This document shows, in pieces, positions 31,685-46,315 of a DNA stretch of 56,336 nt (position 1 is the stretch's first letter; the number at the start of each line of letters is the position of its first letter). The notes under the pieces were generated by a model that was not told where the DNA came from, searched no databases, and was given only the letters and a program-made list of their open reading frames with translations. The stretch is from Anaerolineales bacterium (GTDB taxonomy: Bacteria; Chloroflexota; Anaerolineae; Anaerolineales; Villigracilaceae), in NCBI GenBank assembly GCA_016934715.1, contig JAFGSI010000057.1, positions 1 to 56,336 on the forward strand, written 5' to 3'. A program made the position numbers and the translations under genes.

Positions 31685-33325
31685 TTAGGGGGCTGCTTCC
31701 GGTGGCTTGGGCTTGCCTTTCCTGGTTGTCGCTTCCACCTTCTGATCCTGCTTGCCGACCACCGCGGTGGAGCCCCTGGCGGGGACCTCGCGGTCCTTGA
31801 CCTTCCCCAGGTATTCGGGCAGCTCGAAGCCGGCCATTTCGGCAATATCCTGCAGGGGCGGCAGGCTCTTGAACAGGTTGGCGATGAAGTTGGAGGTCGC
31901 CGATCCTTCGCCGTTGCCGCCCGAGTCCCAGACGGTGATCTTGTCGATCTTGAGATTGCTGATCGCTTCGACCTGGCGGGCGACCAGTTCCTCGAGTTTC
32001 TCGATCATCAGCAGGGTGGCAGCTGCCTGCGAGTCACCCCCCACGCTCTCAACCATCTTGCGGTACCCTTCGGCCTTGGATTCGAGCAGCTTGCGCATGC
32101 CGTCGGCCTCGGCCTGGTACTTGGCCAGGATGCCATCGGCCACACCGCGGGCTTCGCGGCGGGTGCGTTCGGCCTCGGCCTCGGCCGCGATCTCGATCTT
32201 GCTCTTCTCGATCTCCTGGCGGACGACTTCCTCGGCCCGCAGGCGTTCCTGTTCGGATTTGTAGAAAGCCTGCTGGATGGACACCTGGGCTTCGAACCGG
32301 GCCACCTCGGCCTGCTTCAGGGCCGTGGCCCGTTTGACCTCCAGCTCCGCCTCGTAGGCGGCGATATTGGCCTTGGCGGTGTTCTCGCCCTTGATCGCGC
32401 TGGCCTCCTGTTCCTGGACGAAGATCCGCTGGTCGGCCAGGGCCTGCTTCTTGCCCTTTTCTGCCTCGGCCGCGGCGTTGGCCCGCTGGATCTCCAGGCT
32501 GGCATTGTACTTGGCGATGTTGGCATTGGCGGTGTTCTCGCCCTCGACCGCATCGGCTTCCTGCTCCTGGACGCGCTTGCGCTGGTTGGCGTCGGCGGTC
32601 TTGCGGCCGATCTCGGCCTCGGCCAATGCCTGGGCGACTTTGATCTCCTGCTCGCGCACCGCCTGGGCCTCACCAATGGCACCCAGTTTGTTCTGTTCCG
32701 CGACATCGATCTTGGCCTGGTTAATTGCCTCCGAGGCCGCCTTCTTCCCGATGCTGGCGATGTAGTCTGATTCGTCGGTGATGTCGGTGATGTTGACGTT
32801 GATCAGGTGCAGGCCGATCTTGTTCAGTTCAGGCTCCACATTGTGGCGGATCGCCTCGAGGAAGCTTTCGCGGTCCTGGTTGATTTGCTCGATCGTCAGC
32901 GAGGCTACCGTCAGACGCAACTGGCCGAAGATGATCTCTTTGGCCATTTCTTCCACCTGCTGCAGGGGCAGGTGCAGGATGCGCTCGGCGGCGGCGCTGG
33001 TGACCTCGGGTGTGGTGCTGATGCCGACGGTGAAGGTGCTCGGCACGTGGATGCGGATGTTCTGCTGGGAGAGAGCGTTCTCGAGCGGGATGCTGATGGT
33101 CAGCGGGGTCAGGCTTAGATAAGCATAGTCCTGGATCAGAGGCCAGACAAACGTTCCACCGCCGTGCAGGGTTCTGCTCGAACGGCCCTTGGCCACCCGT
33201 CCGTAGATCACCAGAATCTTATCCGATGGGCAGCGCTTGTAGCGGCTCGCCATGTAGACAAAGGTGAAGAAGACGATCACCGCAAAAGCGACTACCGAAA
33301 GTATTCCGAAGCCAGCAGCGTTCAT
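31685..33325 (-). CDS. Flotillin family protein (SPFH domain)
   Basis: Predicted 546-residue membrane-anchored scaffold. Residues 5-27 are a hydrophobic anchor, 30-210 the SPFH/band-7 domain (GGGTFVWPLIQDYAYLSL), and 210-440 a long Glu/Ala coiled coil. Within it a unit of about 50 residues occurs twice (233-284 and 285-335; compare RVQEQEADAVEGENTANANI with FVQEQEASAIKGENTAKANI). The C-terminus carries LPPLQDIAEMAGFELPEYLG, typical of bacterial flotillins such as YuaG/FloT. It follows the NfeD gene by 33 bases, the usual nfeD-flotillin pairing. GGAGG precedes the ATG. It is expected to organise membrane microdomains. Confidence 0.95.
   Translation of the reverse strand: MNAAGFGILSVVAFAVIVFFTFVYMASRYKRCPSDKILVIYGRVAKGRSSRTLHGGGTFVWPLIQDYAYLSLTPLTISIPLENALSQQNIRIHVPSTFTVGISTTPEVTSAAAERILHLPLQQVEEMAKEIIFGQLRLTVASLTIEQINQDRESFLEAIRHNVEPELNKIGLHLINVNITDITDESDYIASIGKKAASEAINQAKIDVAEQNKLGAIGEAQAVREQEIKVAQALAEAEIGRKTADANQRKRVQEQEADAVEGENTANANIAKYNASLEIQRANAAAEAEKGKKQALADQRIFVQEQEASAIKGENTAKANIAAYEAELEVKRATALKQAEVARFEAQVSIQQAFYKSEQERLRAEEVVRQEIEKSKIEIAAEAEAERTRREARGVADGILAKYQAEADGMRKLLESKAEGYRKMVESVGGDSQAAATLLMIEKLEELVARQVEAISNLKIDKITVWDSGGNGEGSATSNFIANLFKSLPPLQDIAEMAGFELPEYLGKVKDREVPARGSTAVVGKQDQKVEATTRKGKPKPPEAAP
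32321..32629 (-). repeat. Tandem internal duplication within the flotillin gene
   Basis: Two adjacent stretches of about 153 bases encode similar 50-residue coiled-coil units (residues 233-284 and 285-335). They share QEQEA-A--GENTA-ANIA as backbone but differ enough to be an old duplication. Confidence 0.6.
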
Positions 33326-33358: not shown

Positions 33359-33967
33359 TTAGTTTTTTTCGACAACCAGCAGGTTGTCAGCCGTAATGCC
33401 CACCACGCGGATGCCCTCTCCGGTGGAGATCTTCTTCTTGTTCGTGCTGACGGCATCCATAATATGCAGCGATCCCTGGACGGGCACCCGCACCTGTCCG
33501 GACCCGCCTTCCGGGATGGTCAGGTAGACCGAGCCGGTCTGCCCGATGGCGTTCTGGATGTCCAGTGTTCCCTCGGATTGCAGGCGTTTCATCTGCATGA
33601 ACAGCATGCCCAGGATCCAGACCGCCAGGATACCGGCTGCGCTCGCCCCGAGAAAGGTCAGCAGGACGTGCCATTCCAGCTGTACCAATGCCAGCCCGAC
33701 CAGGCCGAAGATGGTGAAGAAGGCGGTCAGGCCCTGCAGGGAAGCGAATTTGAAGCTGACGTCGGCTGCATCAGCGTGGTCGCCGGCGGCGTCGGCATGG
33801 GCGTCGTGGGGGATATCCATCGGAACGTCACCGGTGTCACCGATGTCGCTGATGTCGTGGTCACCCCCGATGCCGATCATGACCATGATGGTGCGGAGGA
33901 GGAAGAGCGTTCCGCCGCCGATCGCACAAACCCAGTAGAAGATTTCTATCCAAGTGAGTTCGCTCAT
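33359..33967 (-). CDS. NfeD-like (YuaF-type) membrane protein
   Basis: Predicted 202-residue partner of the adjacent flotillin. Three hydrophobic segments (about 5-33, 83-102 and 105-125) are separated by an Asp/His-rich loop (DISDIGDTGDVPMDIPHDAH). The C-terminal soluble part is an OB-fold: AIGQTGSVYLTIPEGGSGQV and IRVVGITADNLLVVEKN. The start at 33967 is set by the first membrane helix. It is first in the nfeD-flotillin pair. Confidence 0.88.
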   Translation of the reverse strand: MSELTWIEIFYWVCAIGGGTLFLLRTIMVMIGIGGDHDISDIGDTGDVPMDIPHDAHADAAGDHADAADVSFKFASLQGLTAFFTIFGLVGLALVQLEWHVLLTFLGASAAGILAVWILGMLFMQMKRLQSEGTLDIQNAIGQTGSVYLTIPEGGSGQVRVPVQGSLHIMDAVSTNKKKISTGEGIRVVGITADNLLVVEKN

Positions 33968-34504
33968 ATTTCCATCCCGTTTCAAAAGGATATACGAAGA
34001 AGATCTGTCGGGAGTTTCAGCCCCATGGATGAAGGCTGGACGAATTTTGCCTAATCCCCCGGGCGGGGAGTCATGATATCTCGTTTCCATTTTACCACTG
34101 GAAAGAAAAAGCCCGGGGGGTTCCCTGAGGCAATTTAGCGGCACTGCGATTCCGCCATCGGGAGTGGTTTCATTTGCCAGAAGAGGCTCCCCACCGACTT
34201 TCGCGGCCAGCGGTTCCGCGGCTTGTCCGTGGACGCATTTGCACGAAATGCGCGATAATCGAGAAGGAGTTGCCTTGCCGATTTTGCCTCTGTCCGCTTG
34301 CTCCGGGAGCATTTTTGTCGAGGAAAGATTTCGCAGAGTCTCCAGCTGCGGATTCCGGCGATCGTGCACAGTGATTCCGGAGCATTCCGCACAGTGAAGA
34401 GCGGGGAAACACTGGTTGGATTGATTGTACATCAGGTGTGCTATGGAACGGATTTTGCGCCGGCAACGCCTGCGTTGGGGTGCAACACAGGAGGAGATCC
34501 AACG
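33968..34504. other. Geneless stretch with nested inverted repeats
   Basis: No gene is supported. CCCCCGGGC (34056-34064) and GCCCGGGGG (34111-34119) enclose a second pair TTTCCA/TGGAAA (34084-34104). The stretch separates the nfeD operon from the FRG gene and should hold both promoters. Confidence 0.45.
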
Positions 34505-35347
34505 ATGGTATCAAAACCAGCTTCGGAGCCCAGAAGGAGACAGGCGGGCACTGGTCGCGCACGGCAGCCCCGTCACGTCTCCGTGGAAACAATTGATTCT
34601 TGGGACAGTTACCTGAGACTGGTTAACGGTGACTCGTATCGAAACTGGGCATTTCGCGGCCAGGCGGATGCAGCCTGGCAACTCTGGCCGAGTATCACCC
34701 GCGAATTGCAGAACCGCCAGGTGAAGTCACAATACTGGACAAATCAGGAGAGTCGAATCTTCCGCATCTTTCAACGCAAAGCTCTCCAGCTCCTCGAGAA
34801 AGTCCCTGACATTGCAGACACATTTCGCTGGATGGCATTGATGCAGCACCACGGTGCCCCGACACGGCTTCTCGACTTTACCTGGTCCCCCTATGTCGCT
34901 GCGTTTTTCGCGCTGGAGTCCAGTACCACTGACGCAGCGGTATGGGCCATCAACACACTGAGGCTGGGGACGTATTCCTTTACGTTAAGGTCGCATGAAG
35001 ATGATCCAATGGATCTGGAGAAAGCGTTGAAGCTCTACTATAGTTACAGTGCCAACGATGTCGCATTCGGCGAGCCCTTTTTTATGGATCAACGGCTGAT
35101 CGCCCAATCGGGAACATTCGCTTGTCCTTTCGATCTTACGCGACCGATAAACGAGATCTTGGGCCGGCGTCGGGATACTGTTGCCAAGTTTGTGCTTCGA
35201 GGGTCTGGCCTCAGAAAACAGGCGCTCAGCGAGCTCTACCGCATGAACATAACCCACGCGACCCTTTTTCCGGACCTCTACGGACTTGCTCGCTCTCTTC
35301 GATATGAGCTTGAGTCCCATTGGGAATATGATCCTACAGCCCAGTGA
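34505..35347 (+). CDS. FRG domain-containing protein
   Basis: Predicted 280-residue protein built around an FRG domain: NWAFRGQADAAWQLWPSITR (about residues 48-67) with the name-giving F-R-G, then MQHHGAPTRLLDFTWSPYVA and AAFFALE, the most conserved block. Biochemical function of the domain is not established to my knowledge; such genes are frequent in accessory and mobile regions. The N-terminal 35 residues are Arg-rich. AGGAGGAG before the ATG at 34505 sets the start. The gene is less GC-rich than neighbours and sits beside a decayed MNT gene, suggesting an acquired patch. Confidence 0.85.
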   Translation: MVSKPASEPRRRQAGTGRARQPRHVSVETIDSWDSYLRLVNGDSYRNWAFRGQADAAWQLWPSITRELQNRQVKSQYWTNQESRIFRIFQRKALQLLEKVPDIADTFRWMALMQHHGAPTRLLDFTWSPYVAAFFALESSTTDAAVWAINTLRLGTYSFTLRSHEDDPMDLEKALKLYYSYSANDVAFGEPFFMDQRLIAQSGTFACPFDLTRPINEILGRRRDTVAKFVLRGSGLRKQALSELYRMNITHATLFPDLYGLARSLRYELESHWEYDPTAQ

Positions 35348-35792: not shown

Positions 35793-35820
35793 TTGACTTT
35801 TCCAGAGAATCGAGTAGAAT
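35793..35820 (+). promoter_or_regulatory. Promoter of the tetR-ABC operon
   Basis: TTGACT (35793-35798) and TAGAAT (35815-35820) are 16 bases apart. Transcription would start near 35827, inside the palindrome at 35823-35838. Confidence 0.6.
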
Positions 35821-35822
35821 AA

Positions 35823-35838
35823 AAACGAACGTTCGTTT
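35823..35838. promoter_or_regulatory. TetR-type operator palindrome
   Basis: AAACGAACGTTCGTTT is a perfect 16-base palindrome at the predicted start of transcription, 22 bases before the tetR ATG. Position and form fit autorepression by the adjacent TetR-family protein, which would also control the exporter genes behind it. Confidence 0.75.
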
Positions 35839-35859: not shown

Positions 35860-36471
35860 ATGGATGAGATCCAACAATCCAAAGGAGAGCGCACTCGCCA
35901 GGCGATCATCGAGGCGGCCAACGGGTTGTTCCTCGAACAGGGCTACGCGGCCACATCGATGCGCCAGGTCGCCGACCGGGCCGGGCTGGCACTGGGGGGC
36001 ATTTACAACCACTTTACCAACAAGGAGGCCATTTTCCGTGAATTGATCCACGACCGGCATCCTTATCGCCAGATCCTGCCGATCATGCTCAGCACGCCGG
36101 CTGACAACGCAGAGACCTTTGTGCGCTCGGCGGCGCAGGCAATGGTGTCCGAACTTGGGAAACGGCCGGATTTCATCCGGTTGATGATGATCGAACTGGT
36201 CGAATTCAACGGCCGTAACATGCCCAAGATCATCGAGCACGTCCTGCCCGAGGTCATCCCGCTGATCCAGAAATTCAGCGACCAGAAGGGCCAGTTGCGC
36301 AAGCTGCCCCCTTTCGTCTTCTTCCGTGCCTTTATAGGCCTGTTCTTCTCTTACTACATTACGGAGATGATGATTGCCAGCACCCCGATCGCCCTGAACC
36401 AGAATAACGCCCTCGACCACTTCATCGACATCTTCCTGCATGGAATCCTGGCTGACCAGGATCGGAGTTGA
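35860..36471 (+). CDS. TetR/AcrR family transcriptional regulator
   Basis: Predicted 203-residue dimeric repressor. The N-terminal helix-turn-helix is RTRQAIIEAANGLFLEQGYA followed by TSMRQVADRAGLALGGIYNH and FTNKEAIF, a clean TetR_N domain; the ligand-binding C-terminal part is helical. A perfect palindrome overlaps its promoter. The permease gene starts 4 bases after its stop, so this is the first gene of the exporter operon and most likely its regulator, as CecR is for the ybh genes of E. coli. Confidence 0.92.
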   Translation: MDEIQQSKGERTRQAIIEAANGLFLEQGYAATSMRQVADRAGLALGGIYNHFTNKEAIFRELIHDRHPYRQILPIMLSTPADNAETFVRSAAQAMVSELGKRPDFIRLMMIELVEFNGRNMPKIIEHVLPEVIPLIQKFSDQKGQLRKLPPFVFFRAFIGLFFSYYITEMMIASTPIALNQNNALDHFIDIFLHGILADQDRS

Positions 36472-36475
36472 ACCC

Positions 36476-37609
36476 ATGTCCAATTCCCGCTTGTTCTCTA
36501 TCATACGCAAAGAATTCATCCAGATCACGCGTGACCGGCGGACGCTGGCGATCATCTTGCTCATCCCGATCATGCAGTTATTCCTGCTGGGCTACTCGGC
36601 GACCACGGATGTGCGCAACATCCCGCTGGCAGTCTTCGACCAGTGCCGCTGTGCCGAGTCGCGCCAGCTGCTGGACGCCTACCGCGCAGCCGACTACTTT
36701 CACCTGGCTTACGTGGTCGGTTCGGAGGACGAGCTTCGTATCCTGATCGAGCACGGCGACGCCCGGGCCGGTTTGATCATCCCGCCCGACTACGCTGCCC
36801 GCCTGACCGAAGGCCGGGCCCAGGTGGCGTTCATCCTCGACGGCTCGGACGCAACTGCCGGGTCCACCGCGCTCGCGGCGGCGACTTTGATTGGACAGGC
36901 GCATGCCACCGAGTTGATGTTCGAACGCCTGGAGCGCCGTGGAGTGGAGGTCGACAATTTTCAGCCCCCACTCGAGGTCCGCACCCGGGTCTGGTACAAC
37001 CCGGATCTGGTCAGTTCGCACTTCATGATCCCGGGCGTGATCGGCATGATCCTGTTTGCCATCACCTCGATCCTGACCGCCACCGCCATTGTGCGCGAGC
37101 GCGAGCGCGGCACCATCGAGCAGTTGATCGTCACTCCCATCCGTCCGTGGGAGCTGGTGGTCGGCAAGGTTCTGCCTTACGTGATCCTGGCCTTCATCGA
37201 CACGCTCGAGGTCCTGGCCATTGGCCACTGGTGGTTCGGTGTCCCGGTGCGCGGCTCGCTGAGCCTGATCCTGGCCTGCTCGGGGCTGCTGCTGCTATCG
37301 GGGCTCGGGATTGGCCTGTTCGCCTCGACGATCGCCAATACCCAGCAGGAGGCCATGCTGTCGGTCTGGATGACGCTCCTGCCGTCCATCTTCCTGTCGG
37401 GTTTCTTCTTTCCCCTGGAGGCCATGCCCAAGGTGTTGCAGTGGATTTCCTACATCATCCCATTGCGCTACTACCTGGTCATCATTCGGGCTTTGTTGAT
37501 CAAGGGAGTCGGGGCGGGGGCCGTCTGGACCGAGATCCTGGCCCTGACCCTGTTCGGGATCGCCATCCTGGGGGCGGCTTCGGCCCGCTTCCGCAAACGT
37601 TTGGATTAA
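36476..37609 (+). CDS. ABC transporter permease (ABC-2 type)
   Basis: Predicted 377-residue membrane subunit of an exporter. One N-terminal membrane helix (LAIILLIPIMQLFLLGYSAT) is followed by a large extracytoplasmic domain (about 55-175) and five C-terminal helices; TAIVRERERGTIEQLIVTPI is the family signature of YhiP/YbhS-type permeases. The ATG at 36476 follows GGAG, and the tetR stop is 4 bases upstream. It is the only permease seen in this operon, so it should form a homodimer unless a second one lies elsewhere. Confidence 0.92.
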   Translation: MSNSRLFSIIRKEFIQITRDRRTLAIILLIPIMQLFLLGYSATTDVRNIPLAVFDQCRCAESRQLLDAYRAADYFHLAYVVGSEDELRILIEHGDARAGLIIPPDYAARLTEGRAQVAFILDGSDATAGSTALAAATLIGQAHATELMFERLERRGVEVDNFQPPLEVRTRVWYNPDLVSSHFMIPGVIGMILFAITSILTATAIVRERERGTIEQLIVTPIRPWELVVGKVLPYVILAFIDTLEVLAIGHWWFGVPVRGSLSLILACSGLLLLSGLGIGLFASTIANTQQEAMLSVWMTLLPSIFLSGFFFPLEAMPKVLQWISYIIPLRYYLVIIRALLIKGVGAGAVWTEILALTLFGIAILGAASARFRKRLD

Positions 37610-37645
37610 AGATCAACACTTGAGTTGTTCGTTTAGGAGATGACC

Positions 37646-38995
37646 ATGAACCACAAACGCCCTCCCATCCCTGTGATCGTGATCCTCGTGCTCGTTCTTC
37701 TGACGACTGGTTACTTCGGTATCCGGGCCTTGCTTGCCAACGGCGATAACCCGCTGGCCGCCTCCGGGACGATCGAGACGGTTTCGGTCAGCCTGGCGCC
37801 TGAGATCGGCGGCCGGGTGGTTGAAGTGTATGTCAGCGAAGGCGAGGCTGTCCAAACCGGGGCCCCGCTCTTTCGCCTGGATGACACCCTGCTGCTGGCC
37901 CAGCGTGATCTGGCCGCTGCCAGCCTTGAAACGACAGCGGCTGCAGCGGCGACCGCCGCTGCAGCTGTCGAGAGCGCCCGGGCGCAATATGATCTGGCTG
38001 TCGCCGCTGCCCGGGCCGAGGCGGCGGCCAACCGGAGTGCCAATTTGAGCGCCCTGAATCCGACCGGGGCTGTCCTCCCGGGCTGGTATTTGGCCGATGA
38101 TGAAAGGATCGCTGCCGCCCGGTCAACTGTCGAGAGCGCCCTGGTCGTTCGTGATGCATATCGGGGAAGCCTGGAGCATTTGCTTACCGACCCGGCCAAC
38201 GCCGACTTCGTCGCTGCCGAAGAACGCCTGGTGACAGCCCAGGGCGCCTTCCTGACCGCTCGCAGCACGCTCACGCTGGCGACGCTATCCTATGGAGATG
38301 TCGTCTTGCGTGATGCCGCCCAGGAGGCTTACGATGCCGCCCGGGATGAACTGGATGAGGCCCAGACCGCCTATGACCAGCTGGCGGATACCGAATCCGG
38401 GCAGGCCATCCTGACCGCCCGGGCCGAACTGGCGGTGGCGGAGGAGCGCTACCAGTCGGCCCAGGATTTCACCCTGGGGTTGCAGACCGGTCTGTACTCG
38501 CCGCGCGTGGCGGCCGCACAGGCGGTCCTGCGCCAGGCGGAGGCGGCCGCACAGCAGGCCCTTCTGGCTGTGACCCAGGCCGAGGCCAACCTGGCCCTGG
38601 TCGATGTCCAGATCGCCAGGCTGATCGTCACTGCCCCGGTCGATGGCGTGATTCTGATCCGCACGATCGAACCGGGCGAGTTCGTCACCCCCGGCGGTGT
38701 GGCCATGACCCTCGGCCGGCTCGACGACCTGACCATCACTGTCTTCGTCCCCGAGGACCGCTACGGCGAACTATCGCTTGGCCAGTCCGCCAGCGTGACG
38801 GTCGATTCCTTCCCCGGCCGGACCTTCGCGGCGACGGTGGTTCACATTGCCGGCCAGGCTGAGTTCACTCCCCGCAACGTCCAGACCGCTGAAGGGCGCA
38901 CCAGCACTGTCTACGCGATCCGGCTGCAGGTCGATGATCCGGATGGGGTGCTCAAACCCGGCATGCCCGCAGATGTTGTTTTCAACGGAGAGTGA
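37646..38995 (+). CDS. HlyD-family membrane-fusion (adaptor) protein
   Basis: Predicted 449-residue adaptor with one N-terminal membrane anchor (VIVILVLVLLTTGYFGIRAL). Lipoyl half-motifs (GRVVEVYVSEGEAVQTGAPL and TAPVDGVILIRTIEPGEFV) enclose a long Ala-rich coiled coil (about 90-310), followed by a beta-barrel region (VFVPEDRYGELSLGQSASV). It is of the YbhG/EmrA kind. AGGAG at 37634-37638 fits the ATG at 37646 better than the ATG two codons upstream. It should link the ABC permease to the cell envelope. Confidence 0.92.
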   Translation: MNHKRPPIPVIVILVLVLLTTGYFGIRALLANGDNPLAASGTIETVSVSLAPEIGGRVVEVYVSEGEAVQTGAPLFRLDDTLLLAQRDLAAASLETTAAAAATAAAAVESARAQYDLAVAAARAEAAANRSANLSALNPTGAVLPGWYLADDERIAAARSTVESALVVRDAYRGSLEHLLTDPANADFVAAEERLVTAQGAFLTARSTLTLATLSYGDVVLRDAAQEAYDAARDELDEAQTAYDQLADTESGQAILTARAELAVAEERYQSAQDFTLGLQTGLYSPRVAAAQAVLRQAEAAAQQALLAVTQAEANLALVDVQIARLIVTAPVDGVILIRTIEPGEFVTPGGVAMTLGRLDDLTITVFVPEDRYGELSLGQSASVTVDSFPGRTFAATVVHIAGQAEFTPRNVQTAEGRTSTVYAIRLQVDDPDGVLKPGMPADVVFNGE

Positions 38996-38996
38996 G

Positions 38997-39470
38997 ATGG
39001 ATTTCGCCATCCGTCTGGCGCGATCCGGGGACGCCCCGGCCCTGGCAGACCTGATCCGTGAACTGGGTATGTTTGCGTACCTGGCCGCCGAACCCGCACA
39101 GGCGACCGGAGTGCGCGTAGCCGAGCACCTGTCCATGTGCCTGGCCGACGACAGCCATCTGGTCTGCGTGGCCGAGGATGGCGATGGCGTGATCGCCGGC
39201 TATGTGGCGGTTCACTGGCTGCCCTACCTGATCCTGGCCGGGCCGGAGGGTTACGTCTCAGAGTTGTTCGTTCGGGAGCTGGCGCGCGGCCAGGGCCTGG
39301 GTGCCAGGCTGCTGGAGGCCGTGGAAGTGGAGGCTCGGCGGCGTGGGTGTACCCGCCTGATGCTGCTCAACATGCGCCCGCGCGAATCGTACCGGCGCGG
39401 CTTCTATGCCAAGCGCGGCTGGCAGGAACGGCCGGAGGCGGCCAATTTTCTCCGCGATCTGGAGGGGTGA
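38997..39470 (+). CDS. GNAT family N-acetyltransferase
   Basis: Predicted 157-residue acetyltransferase. IRLARSGDAPALADLIREL is the N-terminal GNAT motif [21 protein letters not shown] holds the acetyl-CoA loop (RGQGLG), and FYAKRGWQERPEA is motif B. The ATG follows the HlyD stop (38993-38995) by a single base, so it is co-translated with the exporter genes. The substrate is unknown. Confidence 0.88.
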   Translation: MDFAIRLARSGDAPALADLIRELGMFAYLAAEPAQATGVRVAEHLSMCLADDSHLVCVAEDGDGVIAGYVAVHWLPYLILAGPEGYVSELFVRELARGQGLGARLLEAVEVEARRRGCTRLMLLNMRPRESYRRGFYAKRGWQERPEAANFLRDLEG

Positions 39471-39474
39471 GACC

Positions 39475-39879
39475 TTGAAGAGGTGGATTCCGTGGCTCCA
39501 TCTGGCAATCGGCCTCATGCCGGCCGCCCACCGCATCGAGAAGCAGCAGAGCGGGTGTACCGGATTCTATTCTCCCACCGCCGCCGTCCTGCCCGAGCGG
39601 ACGGGCTTCATCCCGGTCTACATCCTGGGCGCCGATGGATTGGCGGCCGCCAAGAAGGCCTTCGTCACCCACCTGCTCTTCTTCGCCCCCGCCGTATCCC
39701 TGCGCCGGTGCTGGGCCTTGAAGGTCGGGCTGGTCGAGAGGCGGGCCTCGAACGGACCAACGGCATGTACCCTCTCTCCTTGGCGGCCATTCCCGGGCGG
39801 CACCGCCTCCCTCGGTCTGCTGGCCTCGTCCGTGTTTAACCTGACAGGCATGCTCCTTCGAAAGGAGGCCTCAACATGA
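39475..39879 (+). pseudogene. Probable decayed small membrane-protein gene
   Basis: This 405-base interval fills the operon gap. The coding signal jumps between two frames: RWIPWLHLAIG in one, ERVYRILFSHRRR in the other, then FIPVYILGADGLAAAKKAF and AFVTHLLFFAPAV in the first, ERTNGMYPLSLAAI in the second, and GGTASLGLLASSVFNLTGML in the first. Read piecewise it would be a membrane protein of about 130 residues. One continuous frame (TTG at 39475 to 39879) exists, but several stretches then have poor codon use. It overlaps the next ATG by ATGA. Several compensating indels, or sequencing errors, are the best explanation. No family is recognised. Confidence 0.4.
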
Positions 39880-40343
39880 TTCCGGATTCCTTCTGGTCAA
39901 AGATCAAGAATGTCCAGCGCATCCACCAGCGGCTGTATGACTCGGGCAAGGGCTGGATCGTCGGCTGGCTGATCCTGCTCCTGCGCCACACGGGCCGCCG
40001 GTCGGGCAAGCAGTATGCCACCCCGCTGCAGTATGAGCGGATCGACGGCCGATATTACGTCGGGGCGGGGCGTGGCCAGAAGGCGGACTGGTTCCTCAAC
40101 CTGCGGGCCGATCCGCAGGTCGAGGTCTCGGTCGGGCGGCGAACCTTCCCGGCCTGGGCCGAGACGGTCACTGACCCGGCCCGGGTGGCCGATTTCCTGG
40201 CCTACCGGCTGGAGCGCCATCCTTTCATGCTCGGTCTGATGATGAAGCTGCATCACCTGCCGATGCGCCCCAGCCGCGCGCAACTGCTCGAACTGGCGGA
40301 TACGACCGCCATGGCCATCCTGCACCCTCGGGAGGAGAATTGA
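39876..40343 (+). CDS. Deazaflavin (F420)-type nitroreductase family protein
   Basis: Predicted 155-residue protein of the split-barrel DUF385/Ddn family. LLLRHTGRRSGKQYATPLQY is the hallmark, with the positive residues that hold the cofactor's poly-glutamate/phosphate, and GRGQKADWFLNLRADPQVEV is the second conserved block. Relatives use F420 (some FMN or haem) to reduce quinones, nitro compounds or enones. GGAGG before the ATG sets the start. It overlaps the next gene by one base (stop TGA 40341-40343, ATG 40343). Confidence 0.87.
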   Translation: MIPDSFWSKIKNVQRIHQRLYDSGKGWIVGWLILLLRHTGRRSGKQYATPLQYERIDGRYYVGAGRGQKADWFLNLRADPQVEVSVGRRTFPAWAETVTDPARVADFLAYRLERHPFMLGLMMKLHHLPMRPSRAQLLELADTTAMAILHPREEN

Positions 40344-40849
40344 TGAAACGCGATCAGGCGATCGAAATCGCCACCTATGTGATCGTACCGCTGGCCATGC
40401 TGGTGGTCTCGCCTCTGCTGGCGCGCTGGCTGGATTCGTTCTTTTTCTCGCCCGGTCCGCTGGTGACCGGATCACCGGGTCTGCTGGTTTTTGGCATCCT
40501 GGTTTTTCTGCTCGGCCTCGGATTGGCGATCTGGGCGATCTTTCTGTTCAAAACGGCCGGCGAGGGCACCCCTCACCCGAAGCTCCCGCCGAAGAAACTG
40601 GTCACCCGGGGTCCCTATGCGGTGACGCGCAACCCGATGGCCCTGGGCGGTTTCTACATCCTGCTCGGGCAGGCGGCGTTGTATGCGTCATTGGCGCTGC
40701 TGCTGATCGCCCTCCTGTTTGTGCTCATTCTGTACCTGAATGCGAAGTATGTCGAGGAGCCGCAGTTGAAGCGCCGTTTTGGCAAGGCCTATCGGGAATA
40801 CTTGCGCCGGGTGCCGCGTTTCTTCCCCAATCCCTTCCGACGCGCGTGA
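40343..40849 (+). CDS. Isoprenylcysteine carboxyl methyltransferase-like membrane protein
   Basis: Predicted 168-residue protein with four to five membrane helices. The C-terminal signature VTRGPYAVTRNPMALGG, then EEPQLKRRFGKAYREYLRRV, matches the ICMT/PEMT methyltransferase family, which methylates lipids or small substrates with S-adenosylmethionine. GGAGGAG overlaps the end of the previous gene. The bacterial substrate cannot be predicted. Confidence 0.87.
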   Translation: MKRDQAIEIATYVIVPLAMLVVSPLLARWLDSFFFSPGPLVTGSPGLLVFGILVFLLGLGLAIWAIFLFKTAGEGTPHPKLPPKKLVTRGPYAVTRNPMALGGFYILLGQAALYASLALLLIALLFVLILYLNAKYVEEPQLKRRFGKAYREYLRRVPRFFPNPFRRA

Positions 40850-40862
40850 GGACAGGGCGGAC

Positions 40863-41813
40863 ATGACTCTGATCCTGGCATCTGATTTGCACAAATCCTT
40901 TGGCGCCACGAACGCTGTGAATGGCGTCTCATTGGATATCGCCGCGGGCGAGATCTATGGCCTGGTCGGCTCGGACGGGGCTGGCAAGACCACCACCCTG
41001 CGCCTGCTGGTTGGAGCGTTCCAACCGGACCGCGGCGAGATCGCCATCGGCGGTTGCGACATTGCCCGCCAGACCGAGCAGGCCCGGGCCCAGGTCGGCT
41101 ACCTGTCGCAGCGTTTTTCGCTCTACGAGGATCTGACCGTGTTGGAGAACATTCGTTTCTTTGCCGAAGTGCGCGGTCTGACCCGTGACGAGTGGCTGCC
41201 GCGCTGCATGGAGATCCTCGCCTTCGTCGGTCTGGCGGACTTCAAGGACCGCCGCGCCGGGCAGCTTTCCGGCGGCATGAAGCAAAAGCTCGGCCTGGCC
41301 TCGGCCCTGGTCACCCGGCCGAGGGTCCTGCTGCTTGATGAGCCGACCACCGGGGTCGATCCGGTCACCCGCCAGGATTTCTGGCAGCTGCTGATCCGCC
41401 TGGTGGCTTTTCCTCTGGCCCAGGCGGGAGACGGGGCAGATGTGGCGGTCATCATCACCACGCCCTATATGGACGAGGCCTCCCGCTGCCACCGTCTGGG
41501 CTTCATGCGCGCCGGGCAGATCATTGCCAGCGGGACACCTTCGGACTTGCGTGCCCGACTGCAGGGGCGGATCATGGAACTGCGCGGCGCGCCGCTGGAC
41601 CTGCTGCGACGGGTCGCCGCCCAATTGCCGGAGGTGGAAAATGTGCGCCTGTTCGGCGACAGACTGCATCTGCGTCTGGCTCCTGGTCGGTCGCAGGCCG
41701 CGACCGCTGCCCTGGAGCAGGCGGTCCTCGCTGCAGGCGGCTCGCTGTCCGAGGCGCGTCCCGTTTCCCCGACCCTGGAAGACGTCTTCATCGAACTGTC
41801 GGAGCAGGCATGA
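40863..41813 (+). CDS. ABC exporter ATP-binding protein (first)
   Basis: Predicted 316-residue nucleotide-binding subunit. Walker A is GSDGAGKTTT, the Q-loop is in GYLSQRFSLYEDLT, the signature is LSGGMKQKLGLA and Walker B is VLLLDEPTTGVDP; TPYMDEA stands in the H-loop place, with Thr-Pro where His is expected (TTHYMDEA in the second ATPase). A C-terminal extension (about 230-316) is of the drug-exporter type. It starts 13 bases after the methyltransferase gene and overlaps the next gene by ATGA. The lost switch histidine suggests an asymmetric heterodimer with the second ATPase. Confidence 0.92.
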   Translation: MTLILASDLHKSFGATNAVNGVSLDIAAGEIYGLVGSDGAGKTTTLRLLVGAFQPDRGEIAIGGCDIARQTEQARAQVGYLSQRFSLYEDLTVLENIRFFAEVRGLTRDEWLPRCMEILAFVGLADFKDRRAGQLSGGMKQKLGLASALVTRPRVLLLDEPTTGVDPVTRQDFWQLLIRLVAFPLAQAGDGADVAVIITTPYMDEASRCHRLGFMRAGQIIASGTPSDLRARLQGRIMELRGAPLDLLRRVAAQLPEVENVRLFGDRLHLRLAPGRSQAATAALEQAVLAAGGSLSEARPVSPTLEDVFIELSEQA

Positions 41814-42310
41814 CAGGGATTCAGCCCAGACTCGACCTTTCCGAAGAACATGCCCGGGCCCTGGCCTGGCTGCTGGACAATGTCCCGCCGGCGGAACTGC
41901 TCTGGGCCCTGACCGGCTCGGCCGGATTGCGTCTGCAGGGCGTTGACCTGCAGGTCCACGACCTGGATATTCAGACCGATCAGCAGACAGTCTATGCCAT
42001 CGAGCAACGTCTGGGGTCGAAGGTGCACACCCCGGTTCGCTTGTGGGAATCGCCCGGGATGCGCTCGCTGGACGGTAAGGCCAGGGTCGCGGGGATCGAG
42101 ATTGAGCTGCTGGCCAATCTGGTCCACCGGCTGCCAGACGGTTCCTGGTCGAGCTTGACCGATTTCTCGCGCCTGGTCTGGCTCGACTGGCACGGCCGGT
42201 CGCTGGCGGTCTTCCCGCTCGAGAACGAGGCTGAGGCCTATGAAGCCATGGGCCGGGCTGAAAAAGCGGCCCTGATCCGCCAGACGATCCGGCATCTGCA
42301 GACAGGCTAG
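41810..42310 (+). CDS. Minimal nucleotidyltransferase-fold protein
   Basis: Predicted 166-residue protein of the polymerase-beta nucleotidyltransferase fold. LTGSAGLRLQGVDLQVHDLD gives the GS motif (36-37) and the D51/D53 metal pair; AGIEIELLANL offers the third carboxylate (E97 or E99). It resembles small aminoglycoside/lincosamide-type and AbiEii-like transferases at the level of fold only; no target can be named. It overlaps the upstream ATPase gene by ATGA and is followed by the second ATPase gene, so it is embedded in the exporter operon. Confidence 0.72.
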   Translation: MTGIQPRLDLSEEHARALAWLLDNVPPAELLWALTGSAGLRLQGVDLQVHDLDIQTDQQTVYAIEQRLGSKVHTPVRLWESPGMRSLDGKARVAGIEIELLANLVHRLPDGSWSSLTDFSRLVWLDWHGRSLAVFPLENEAEAYEAMGRAEKAALIRQTIRHLQTG

Positions 42311-42372
42311 CAGAGCGGATTCTCTGAGGTCCGGTCCTTTCGTGATCCTTCGTGTCAAGTGTGGAGATCCTG

Positions 42373-43284
42373 ATGCCTGAACCTGTCGTCATTGCTGAAA
42401 ACCTGACCCGCCGATTCGGCGATTTCGTCGCCGTCGACCACGTCAACTTCACGGTTGCGCCCGGCGAGATCGTCGGCTACCTGGGGCCGAACGGGTCAGG
42501 CAAGACCACCACCATCCGCATGCTGCTCGGCCTGCTGGAACCGTCCGAGGGACGGGCGAGTGTGCTTGGCTTCGATGCCTTTCGCCAGTCGGAGGAAATC
42601 CGTGCCCGGGCCGGTTACATGTCGCAAAAGTTCGCCCTCTACGATGACCTGACCGTCTGGGAGAATCTGGTCTTTTATGCCGGGGTTTATGGCATCCGTG
42701 AGAAGGAGCGCATCGAAGCGACCTTGGACCAGGTCGAAGTGGGGGAGCATCGCCTCGATCTGGCGCGCGACCTCTCGGCTGGCTGGCGCCAGCGCCTGGC
42801 CATGGCGATCGCCCTGGTCCACCGGCCGAAATTGCTCTTTCTCGACGAGCCGACCTCGGGGGTCGACCCGGCCGCCCGGCGGGTCTTCTGGGATCTGATC
42901 TATGCCCTGGCCGGGCAAGGCGTGACCATCTTCGTGACCACCCACTACATGGACGAGGCCGAGTACTGCGAGCGGGTCGGGATCATGCGTGAAGGCAAAC
43001 TGTTGGCCCTCGACACACCGGCAGTGCTCAAGGCCCGGGCCATCCCGGGCGACGTCTGGGAGGTGCATGCCTCGCCGCTGCAGGCCGCCCTGGATGCCTG
43101 CGAGACCGGCCGGGGTGTGCTGCGCGTCGGCCTGGCCGGGGATCACCTGCGGCTCATTACGGAGCGCGGCCTGCAGCAGGAACAGCTGCGGGCGGGACTG
43201 GCCGCCTCCGGATTGACGGTTGCTCGCCTGGAACGCGGCGAGCCAACTCTTGAGGATGTCTTCCTGGCACTGGCCAGGGACTAG
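42373..43284 (+). CDS. ABC exporter ATP-binding protein (second)
   Basis: Predicted 303-residue nucleotide-binding subunit. Walker A is GPNGSGKTTT, Q-loop GYMSQKFALYDDLT, Walker B LLFLDEPTSGVDP and H-loop VTTHYMDEAEY. The signature reads LSAGWRQRLAMA rather than LSGGxxQ. It is similar to the first ATPase at 40863; in E. coli YbhF both domains are in one chain. GGAG precedes the ATG at 42373. It is the last gene of the run. Confidence 0.92.
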   Translation: MPEPVVIAENLTRRFGDFVAVDHVNFTVAPGEIVGYLGPNGSGKTTTIRMLLGLLEPSEGRASVLGFDAFRQSEEIRARAGYMSQKFALYDDLTVWENLVFYAGVYGIREKERIEATLDQVEVGEHRLDLARDLSAGWRQRLAMAIALVHRPKLLFLDEPTSGVDPAARRVFWDLIYALAGQGVTIFVTTHYMDEAEYCERVGIMREGKLLALDTPAVLKARAIPGDVWEVHASPLQAALDACETGRGVLRVGLAGDHLRLITERGLQQEQLRAGLAASGLTVARLERGEPTLEDVFLALARD

Positions 43285-44655: not shown

Positions 44656-45075
44656 TTACTCCCCAACGATCTGAACGACCAGCTGTCTCTGCCGTGGGCG
44701 GATGTCGAAGTCGATATACAGGACCTGCTGCCAGGTTCCCAGGGTCAGGTGCCCGTCGACCAGGGGGACCGTCAGTGAGGGACCGAGCAGGGCGGCCCGC
44801 AGGTGCGAGTGGCCGTTGCCGTCGCCCCAGGCGGCCTCGTGGGCGTAATCGTGGCCCTGCGGGGCAAGCTGGTCGAACAGCCGCCGCAGGTCGGCCAGCG
44901 CCCCGGGCTCGTACTCGATGGTTGTCACCGCGCTGGTCGAGGAGGGGCAGAAGATGGTCAGCGTGCCGTTCTGCAGCCCGCTTTCCTGGATGGCGGCAGT
45001 TAATGCGCCGGTCAGATTGTGCATATCGGCGTTCCCGCGCGTCTCCAGCGAGATGGTCGTGGTTGTGACAGGCAT
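44656..45075 (-). CDS. YjbQ family protein (UPF0047)
   Basis: Predicted 139-residue cytosolic protein. LTIFCPSSTSAVTTIEYEPG, GNGHSHLRAALLGPS and LTLGTWQQVLYIDFDIRPRQ are the conserved blocks of the YjbQ family, whose trimeric members have weak thiamine-phosphate-synthase-like activity; the true role is unsettled. It is divergent from the dehydrogenase at 45197. Confidence 0.92.
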   Translation of the reverse strand: MPVTTTTISLETRGNADMHNLTGALTAAIQESGLQNGTLTIFCPSSTSAVTTIEYEPGALADLRRLFDQLAPQGHDYAHEAAWGDGNGHSHLRAALLGPSLTVPLVDGHLTLGTWQQVLYIDFDIRPRQRQLVVQIVGE

Positions 45076-45196: not shown

Positions 45197-46315
45197 ATGG
45201 CGAAATACAAACTAGCCTGGTTACCAGGTGACGGCATCGGGGTGGACGTCCTGGATGCCACCCAAATCGTCCTGAAGCGGATCGCACTGGACGCCGAGTA
45301 CATCCCTGGCGACATTGGCTGGGAGTTCTGGTGTCGGGAGGGGGAAGCCCTGCCTCAACGGACCATTGACCTGCTCAGGAACGTGGACGCGGCCATGTTC
45401 GGCGCCATCACCTCCAAGCCGGTCAAGGCTGCAGAGGCGGAACTGGTTCCCGAGCTGCGCGGCCAGGGTCTGGTCTACCGCTCGCCGATCGTCCGCATGC
45501 GCCAGATGTTCGACCTGTACATCTGCCTGCGCCCATGCAAGGCTTACCCGGGCAACCCGCTCAACTACCGGGACGACATCGACCTGGTCGTCTTCCGTGA
45601 GAACACCGAGGACCTGTACTCCGGGGTGGAATTCAATCCGGTCCCGGCCGAACTGGCCGAGGTATTGTTAAAACTCTCGAAGCCGTTCGCGGCCTTCAGG
45701 GAATACCCGCTCGACCAGCTGGCCATCTCCAGCAAGATCGTCACCCGCAAGGGTTCGGAGCGGATCATCCGGGCAGCCTTCGAGTTTGCCCGCCAGCATC
45801 ATCGCCGAAAAGTGACCGTCATTCACAAGGCCAATGTGGTGCGGGCCACCGAGGGCATGTTCCTGGATATTGCCCGGGAGGTCCATCAGGACTTCCCCGA
45901 GATCGAGATGGACGATGCGAACGTGGATGCCATCTGCATGTGGCTGTTGAAGAATCCAGGCAACTACGATGTGCTGGTGGCGACCAATATGTTCGGTGAC
46001 ATCATCTCGGACCTGGCAGCCCAGATGGTCGGTGGGTTGGGCTTCGGCTGCTCGGGCAACATCAGTGAGAACCTGGGAGTCTTCGAACCCAGCCACGGCT
46101 CGGCGCCCAAGTATGCCGGGCAGTACAAGGTCAACCCGATCGCGACGATCCTCTCGGCCCGGATGATGCTCGACTGGCTGGGCGAGACCGACAAAGCCGC
46201 CGCCATTGAGCGGGCCGTCGCGGCGGTCATCCAGGAAGGCCAGATTCGCACGTACGACATGGGCGGCTCGCACTCGACCCTGGAGATGGGCGAAGCGATC
46301 GCAGCGAAATTGTAG
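45197..46315 (+). CDS. Isocitrate/isopropylmalate family dehydrogenase
   Basis: Predicted 372-residue beta-decarboxylating dehydrogenase. LAWLPGDGIGVDV is the N-terminal signature, RMRQMFDLYICLRPCKAYPG the substrate-binding segment, LVVFRENTEDLYSGVEF the catalytic region with Tyr, VIHKANVVRATEGMFLDIA the catalytic Lys, and NMFGDIISDLAAQMVGG the metal aspartates. The substrate segment is neither the IPMDH form (LRxxxxLYANLRP) nor the classic NADP-IDH form, so isocitrate, isopropylmalate, homoisocitrate or another 2-hydroxy-dicarboxylate is possible. GGAGG precedes the ATG. It leads a run containing a lyase and a LeuC/LeuD-type hydratase. Confidence 0.9.
   Translation: MAKYKLAWLPGDGIGVDVLDATQIVLKRIALDAEYIPGDIGWEFWCREGEALPQRTIDLLRNVDAAMFGAITSKPVKAAEAELVPELRGQGLVYRSPIVRMRQMFDLYICLRPCKAYPGNPLNYRDDIDLVVFRENTEDLYSGVEFNPVPAELAEVLLKLSKPFAAFREYPLDQLAISSKIVTRKGSERIIRAAFEFARQHHRRKVTVIHKANVVRATEGMFLDIAREVHQDFPEIEMDDANVDAICMWLLKNPGNYDVLVATNMFGDIISDLAAQMVGGLGFGCSGNISENLGVFEPSHGSAPKYAGQYKVNPIATILSARMMLDWLGETDKAAAIERAVAAVIQEGQIRTYDMGGSHSTLEMGEAIAAKL

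Follow-up and report, generated by a model that had tools for sequence, protein, structure and literature searches.

The 56,336-nucleotide stretch analysed here (hereafter the window) comes from contig JAFGSI010000057.1 of Anaerolineales bacterium (Chloroflexota; Villigracilaceae; assembly GCA_016934715.1, 4.09 Mb in all). It encodes an export system that, by sequence, belongs to the YbhF/RbbA class of ABC-2 exporters: homology of the permease, an asymmetric pair of nucleotide-binding domains (NBDs) and a HlyD-type adaptor all place it there. The unit lies on the + strand, from the TetR gene at 35860 through the end of ATPase 2 at 43284. We put the chances at about even that it is an efflux pump switched by its own TetR regulator and accompanied by optional detoxifying enzymes. 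An inducible detoxification unit is suggested because three features fit it together: a local TetR switch, a pump that probably hydrolyses ATP at one site, and modifying enzymes that are co-inherited with it. We infer a single transcript, hydrolysis at one site, a substrate class of unwanted hydrophobic compounds, and a role in detoxification.

A preliminary description, made from the letters alone, had named an exporter operon at 36476–43284. Every gene that it listed is present on the + strand, as judged by Pfam, NCBIfam and PDB matches; the list itself was incomplete, leaving out the TetR gene (35860–36471) and an open reading frame (ORF) similar to HXXEE proteins (39475–39879). The features, in order along the + strand, are as follows.

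35793–35820, +: promoter-like site (TTGACT, 16 nt, TAGAAT; 10 of 12 consensus matches)
35823–35838, +: perfect 16-bp palindrome AAACGAACGTTCGTTT, predicted as the probable TetR operator
35860–36471, +: TetR-family regulator (PF00440, 1.1e-16)
36476–37609, +: ABC-2 permease; the unit has no other (PF12698, 1.6e-50)
37640–38995, +: HlyD/membrane-fusion-type (MFP) adaptor (PF16576, 1.7e-22)
38997–39470, +: GNAT acetyltransferase (PF00583, 1e-15)
39475–39879, +: HXXEE-like ORF, divergent and possibly decaying; its stop overlaps the start of the reductase gene
39876–40343, +: F420H2-dependent (deazaflavin) reductase family, DDN/FDOR-A-like, F420H2_quin_red (PF04075, 4e-17; TIGR00026)
40343–40849, +: membrane methyltransferase of the PEMT/ICMT superfamily (PF04191, 3.4e-16)
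40863–41813, +: ATPase 1, with Walker A and B intact, signature LSGGM, and the switch histidine replaced by proline
41810–42310, +: TM1012-like nucleotidyltransferase (PF10706, 31.5 bits against a cut-off of 21; PDB TM1012, 1.5e-24)
42352–43284, +: ATPase 2, with Walker A and B and the switch histidine intact and signature LSAGW; an ATG start is possible at 42376

From the permease to ATPase 2, neighbouring genes overlap or are separated by 65 bases at most, and the overlaps fall at three junctions (39876/39879, 40343 and 41810/41813).

Relatives came from 197 loci (the window included), of which 194 hold the permease; merging identical or contained permeases left 140 unique loci, and 108 of these have the full core of permease, HlyD adaptor, ATPase 1 and ATPase 2. 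Counts of gene order refer to 91 full-core loci from an earlier set of 117 (window included), assembled before named loci were added. One locus (L068) was excluded as a paralogous unit, as were ORF clusters 0 and 5, judged to be antisense or out-of-frame shadows. The core tree was built with FastTree and carries local supports only. A close permease homologue occurs in 122 of 152 family genomes (E ≤1e-100), and in 145 of 301 genomes drawn from the order and 40 of 301 drawn from the phylum (both E ≤1e-90); the window's genome is counted each time. The best 80 named permease relatives bear names of Chloroflexota type, mostly Anaerolineales, Anaerolineae or Chloroflexi.

Two unequal ATPases and one permease

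In an ABC dimer, the Walker motifs of each subunit and the signature motif of its partner together enclose one ATP. The window's ATPase 1 has the signature LSGGM and reads TTPYMDEA at the H-loop; ATPase 2 has the signature LSAGW and reads TTHYMDEA. Because Walker motifs pair with the signature of the partner, the histidine lost from ATPase 1 and the altered signature of ATPase 2 fall in one composite site. The other composite site, formed by the Walker motifs and histidine of ATPase 2 with the LSGGM of ATPase 1, is intact as judged from its motifs.

This asymmetry, with both defects in the same site, is conserved in the family sample. Once sequences with stops or frame breaks had been removed, all 100 ATPase 1 sequences have proline as the switch residue and LSGGM as the signature, and ATPase 2 keeps the histidine in 95 of 95. 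The third position of the ATPase 2 signature is A in 45, T in 38, V in 7 and G in 5 of these 95, and the fifth is W in 93 and F in 2. The preliminary description had noted the missing histidine and the LSAGW signature and had proposed a heterodimer with one working site. Both motifs were read correctly, the family sample shows no variation in their pattern, and they predict two composite sites, one consensus and the other degenerate, in line with that proposal. A departure from YbhF in the unequal pair is not supported; both YbhF and RbbA carry the same asymmetry.

Outside the family, the 18 loci sampled hold two ATPases in 11 cases, one in four and none in three (L298, L302 and the cut locus L312). 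ATPase 1 has the switch proline in ten of the 11 two-ATPase loci, and in the remaining one the position was not found by pattern. Four phylum-level relatives (L306–L309) have a close permease and a HlyD adaptor together with a single ATPase that combines LSGGW with the switch histidine; two-ATPase and one-ATPase forms therefore coexist in the phylum. We considered the tryptophan of LSAGW as a lesion and rejected it, since LSGGW occurs in these four single-ATPase relatives. The tryptophan is thus better seen as a lineage trait, and the relaxed change is glycine to alanine at signature position 3. Relaxation at this position (to Ala, Thr or Val) is mostly confined to this family.

The order TetR–permease–HlyD–ATPase 1–ATPase 2 is kept in 83 of the 91 full-core loci, with TetR upstream of the permease, and the other eight have the same order minus TetR. 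The separate ATPase genes and the single permease of the preliminary description both prove general: there is no fused ATPase 1–ATPase 2 among the 91 loci, and 90 of them have one permease. Apparent fusions in L048 and L056 were overlaps of ORFs and were rejected, as the two ATPases lie in no common open frame. A phmmer search with YbhS, YbhR and the window's permease found one permease per unit over the first 37 stretches; with the window's permease over the 117 loci and 18 further loci there was one per unit, the exceptions being L122, L311 and L312; no search was aimed at an orphan permease in the rest of the genome. Tandem permease pairs, reminiscent of YbhS–YbhR, are seen in L122 and, outside the family, in L311 and L312. 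The HlyD adaptor was not seen in a few relatives (L118, L120 and L129).

The window's permease is 31.9% identical to YbhR (3.9e-63) and 32.9% identical to YbhS (2.1e-58). We propose that this permease, probably as a homodimer, would be driven by two different ATPases made from separate genes. The Walker motifs and switch histidine of ATPase 2 would form the hydrolysing site with the LSGGM of ATPase 1, and the Walker motifs of ATPase 1, with proline for histidine, would form with the altered signature of ATPase 2 a site that binds ATP and hydrolyses it poorly.

A TetR gene and its palindrome

The palindrome at 35823–35838 sits after the −10-like hexamer, and 21 bases separate its end from the TetR gene. 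It is new here, and it is the probable TetR operator. When 13 upstream regions were aligned, all 12 that are comparable (window included) have TTGAC aligned in one column and share GAACGTTC, the core of the palindrome; in the thirteenth (L170) a short TetR match led to a misplaced region. In 115 of the 126 loci that have TetR, the 150 bp upstream of that gene hold the 14-base core with two mismatches or fewer (85 exact, 22 with one mismatch and 8 with two), four loci with too short upstream DNA having been set aside. By comparison, the core lies upstream of the permease in none of the eight loci that lack TetR, where the best sites have 5–7 mismatches. L303, a relative at the level of the phylum only, carries a site with one mismatch whose first base is 31 bases ahead of the TetR match.

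The inner 14 bases of the palindrome give one site in the window's genome at one mismatch or fewer. Of 12 genomes scanned in the same way, 11 contain such a site, and in 10 it is located at the TetR gene of the operon; a reversed control pattern gives 0–2 sites per genome. G002 has a second site elsewhere in the genome. In G005, whose operon lacks TetR, the scan found no site. The operon of G017 also lacks TetR, and there the only site is on a different contig, preceding a TetR match that is partial (172 bits, about 110 residues).

As comparative evidence, this linkage of palindrome and TetR speaks well for the unit being a target of the regulator. We infer that TetR binds the palindrome; a ligand would then free it from the promoter, and the whole unit would be expressed. 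The operon called in the preliminary description is supported in this extended form: the palindrome and promoter comparison predicts an operon-like unit behind one TetR switch. Within the unit there is a weak promoter-like site at 41943–41971 (9 of 12 consensus matches). The region holds 7 terminator-like sites, close to the mean of 5.8 expected from shuffles.

Enzymes between the pump genes

The reductase exceeds the TIGR00026 cut-off (65.2 bits against 46.35) and matches Ddn in the PDB (3r5p, 1.8e-8). The genome also encodes the F420 pathway protein CofD (299 bits against a cut-off of 257.45). Profile and pathway gene together place the protein in the F420-reductase family, and F420 use is predicted. 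The methyltransferase had been described as ICMT-like; it is indeed a membrane methyltransferase, although it passes the PEMT cut-off (PF04191, 60 bits against 25) and falls below that of Pfam ICMT (15.9 bits against 24). The nucleotidyltransferase matches TM1012 over residues 12–160 of 166. It is probably active, because TGS, DLD and a later acidic residue, which we take to be the usual catalytic pattern, are retained in all 12 aligned operon copies. The label aminoglycoside nucleotidyltransferase comes solely from its PF10706 family match. The best NCBIfam match of the GNAT protein is a RiPP (ribosomally synthesized and post-translationally modified peptide) acetyltransferase, at 45.7 bits far under the cut-off of 250.

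The ORF at 39475–39879 has no Pfam or NCBIfam match. We nevertheless rejected the idea that it is noise, on homology and on the GC content of third codon positions (GC3): it matches the HXXEE copy of L167 by blastp (1.5e-15, an E-value for a five-sequence set), HXXEE-family proteins occupy the same place in relatives, and its GC3 of 0.82 is like that of the neighbouring genes. We do not claim an intact function, because its HXXEE motif reads H..EK and the last third aligns badly.

Accessory genes are common at these loci and very varied. At least one scored family is present in 70 of the 108 full-core loci: the reductase in 43, S23 (PF05635) in 24, SRPBCC (PF10604) in 18, the nucleotidyltransferase in 10, PEMT in 9, HXXEE (PF13787) in 4, and others in 4 or fewer; the names S23, SRPBCC, HXXEE, PIN, methyltransferase and FMN reductase are those of Pfam families. 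GNAT is found in the window only, one of the 140 loci. Across the same 140 loci, the reductase lies between HlyD and ATPase 1 in 44 of 44 cases and the nucleotidyltransferase between the two ATPase genes in 10 of 10. SRPBCC occupies the latter gap in 18 loci and a contig end in one more, and S23 the former in 25, with two further copies at contig ends (27 loci). PEMT is found between TetR and the permease in 8 loci, between HlyD and ATPase 1 in 2 and before TetR in 1. In L035 (5479–5892) and L032 (6899–7312, −), a PIN-domain gene and 23S_rRNA_IVP four-helix genes also lie between HlyD and ATPase 1. No full-core locus has both nucleotidyltransferase and SRPBCC (10 and 18 singly); our own estimate is that chance would give this about 1 time in 7, and we make no claim of mutual exclusion.

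The reductase and nucleotidyltransferase not only recur at fixed positions but also track the permease across the family. Their distances correlate with those of the permease at r 0.35 (0 of 2,000 permutations as high) and 0.51 (7 of 2,000), respectively. For core genes the values are HlyD 0.51, ATPase 1 0.44, ATPase 2 0.43 and TetR 0.40 (0 of 2,000 each), and for other accessory genes S23 0.29 (34 of 2,000), SRPBCC 0.22 (33 of 2,000) and PEMT 0.32 (157 of 2,000). In a 400-genome draw from the order, nucleotidyltransferase homologues scoring at least 143 bits lie between ATPase 1 and ATPase 2 in 10 of 10 cases, as they also do in two genomes outside the draw (G138 and G170). Ten of the 32 lower-scoring homologues were examined, and none has a core operon gene within the roughly 0.6–3.9 kb covered on each side. 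The operon reductases group apart from 22 paralogues from nine genomes (22 of 24 rows used; two had no locus), needing 3 changes where shuffles need 18.8. With 10 paralogues, FastTree had given one clean reductase clade; we adopted the more careful run with 22.

That the enzymes modify the exported molecule, as the preliminary description suggested, is plausible. On our preferred reading, optional enzymes would be added at set places (reductase between HlyD and ATPase 1, nucleotidyltransferase or SRPBCC between ATPase 1 and ATPase 2, with others besides), and would most likely modify unwanted hydrophobic compounds so that these become less toxic or are better pumped.

Several observations weigh against this inducible detoxification reading, of which the substrate is the weak step. 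Of the 126 loci with TetR, 10 have a poor palindrome (5–7 mismatches) and one has three mismatches. In 6 of the 11 two-ATPase loci outside the family, ATPase 2 keeps glycine as the third residue of its signature (LSGGW), and the asymmetry there therefore rests on the histidine lost from ATPase 1 alone. Thirty-eight of the 108 full-core loci carry no scored accessory family, among them G062, which has the highest full-length permease identity to the window (89%) and, as L155, the nearest path on the core tree; the pump therefore does not need the enzymes. (G061 matches at 94%, though just across the permease's last half; its locus lies outside the comparison.) The reductase requires at least 16 changes on the core tree and S23 19; the minimum is 7 for the nucleotidyltransferase, 8 for SRPBCC and 7 for PEMT. 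Correlation alone is not proof of shared function, because a vertically inherited passenger would correlate too. Finally, the operon reductases need three changes, not one, on the 22-paralogue tree, a single change being found in 38% of bootstrap trees.

The same observations bear on a simpler explanation, namely that the pump is self-sufficient and that the gaps before ATPase 1 and ATPase 2 tolerate unrelated useful genes riding on its promoter. The 70 full-core loci with accessory genes hold very different ones there, including S23 and PIN, which have no obvious link to efflux; S23 with its 19 changes and GNAT with its single occurrence fit too. The preliminary description had treated the enzymes as a fixed part of the operon, and its own check, gene order in close relatives, went against it. 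For the interleaved set as a whole, all five inserted genes are missing from the operons of G001, G002 and G062; in the two same-genus genomes, G001 and G002, the slot holds only an S23-family gene. What stands of that claim is the recurrence of the reductase and nucleotidyltransferase and their tracking of the permease. Free riding does not readily explain the single position that each of these two keeps, nor why close homologues of the nucleotidyltransferase were found in this operon only (10 of 10 in the draw); their correlation with the permease, approximately that of core genes, points the same way, with the reservation on vertical inheritance given above. We consider it unlikely, though a serious contender, that passengers explain the whole set; the optional enzymes may in part be passengers of a tolerant operon.

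A more ambitious version of the detoxification reading is a swappable line under one switch, with F420H2-dependent reduction, then nucleotidyl, acetyl or methyl conjugation, then export, and the nucleotidyltransferase as a dedicated partner of the pump. Such a line would parallel the three phases (I, II and III) in which animals metabolise drugs. We regard it as speculative and rather unlikely.

It is improbable that the pump instead moves an envelope lipid or an isoprenoid such as a quinone, with the reductase, PEMT methyltransferase and SRPBCC protein making or carrying the cargo. The best PDB relatives of ATPase 1 are ABCA phospholipid transporters, but this likeness is, we presume, widespread in this class of ATPase. 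SRPBCC carries the Pfam name 'Polyketide cyclase / dehydrase and lipid transport', PEMT is annotated as a phospholipid methyltransferase, and the DDN family includes menaquinone reductases, as PMC8498797 reports. The enzymes are optional, however, where an envelope pathway would be expected to be constant, and a local TetR switch better suits an inducible pump. Somewhat less probable still is self-resistance to, or export of, a small product made by the cell and tailored by the enzymes: GNAT, methyltransferase, reductase and nucleotidyltransferase could all act in tailoring, and GNAT has its far-below-cut-off RiPP match, but there is no scaffold-making gene among the unit's genes (the annotation covered the unit, not the rest of the window) and the enzyme set varies among close relatives.

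The genes around the unit can be described briefly. Upstream, 34298–35347 (+) is an ORF that we take to be FRG-domain-protein-like, and 31685–33325 (−), presumably a flotillin-like (SPFH) protein, adjoins a probable membrane protein at 33359–34432 (−); a similar membrane protein is also found upstream of the operon in L038. Downstream are a gene for a small conserved protein at 44656–45075 (−) and an ORF ending at 46315 (+) that is presumably isocitrate/isopropylmalate dehydrogenase-like; sequences similar to each also follow the operon in the same-genus loci L032 and L066.

Relation to known exporters

For a poorly studied group, this is an efflux unit whose bounds are clear and which has a likely operator and ligand switch, so that inducers can be sought directly. 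Two small enzymes, the F420-type reductase and the TM1012-like nucleotidyltransferase, accompany one pump, and this provides a handle on their substrates. In a literature search of open-licence papers, covering the titles and the starts of abstracts of the entries listed (8 of 11 for TM1012), neither this operon type nor nucleotidyltransferases linked to exporters were the subject of any paper, and we found none on the function of TM1012.

Both enzymes have relatives of known structure. The reductase belongs with Ddn and the FDOR-A reductases by family match and PDB relatives (8d4w, 3r5p), and the window's copy is part of an operon-linked subgroup. FDOR enzymes reduce menaquinone and other quinones, dyes, tetracycline and further compounds, often promiscuously, according to PMC8498797. 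The nucleotidyltransferase is homologous to Thermotoga TM1012 (PDB 2ewr, 2fcl, 4hx0); the window's copy sits between two exporter ATPase genes.

With the E. coli system YbhFSR (CecR-YbhG-YbhF-YbhS-YbhR), which exports tetracyclines and ethidium as PMC7190983 reports, the unit shares a TetR-family gene, a HlyD-type adaptor, an asymmetric NBD pair and an ABC-2 permease. Indeed, YbhF has STSYLDEA and LSGGM in NBD1 and LPLGF and TTHFMDEA in NBD2, the same asymmetry as ATPase 1 and ATPase 2. By contrast, the NBDs are separate genes here and fused in YbhF, there is one permease rather than two, the permease precedes the adaptor, accessory enzymes lie within the unit, and the likeness of the TetR protein to CecR is weak (19.1 bits against a cut-off of 365). 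With unfused NBDs, one permease and no CecR regulator, the sequence is not that of YbhFSR proper.

YhiI-RbbA-YhhJ likewise combines an adaptor with NBD1, NBD2 and a permease of one class, and its motifs show the same pattern (ATAYMEEA and LSGGM in NBD1, LPLGI and STHFMNEA in NBD2). The RbbA model of NCBIfam is the best match for the permease, ATPase 1 and ATPase 2 each (229–282 bits, short of the cut-off of 1,050), but RbbA is one fused chain and the window's proteins are split. Unequal ATPases are therefore not peculiar to split genes, because YbhF and RbbA show the same NBD1/NBD2 pattern; by these motifs the asymmetry has been inherited and is usual in the class. Conversely, the unequal ATPases of YbhF and RbbA extend to split-gene relatives, and in this family they are strictly conserved.

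TM287/288, BmrCD and TAP are heterodimeric exporters with one degenerate site, in which each chain fuses a transmembrane domain to an NBD. The window's unit would resemble them in pairing a consensus composite site with a degenerate one, and differs in being an ABC-2 pump with separate ATPases. Set against all of these, it is no new kind of system; it is a distinct variant, with a single permease, split ATPases, its operator, and an operon-linked reductase and nucleotidyltransferase.

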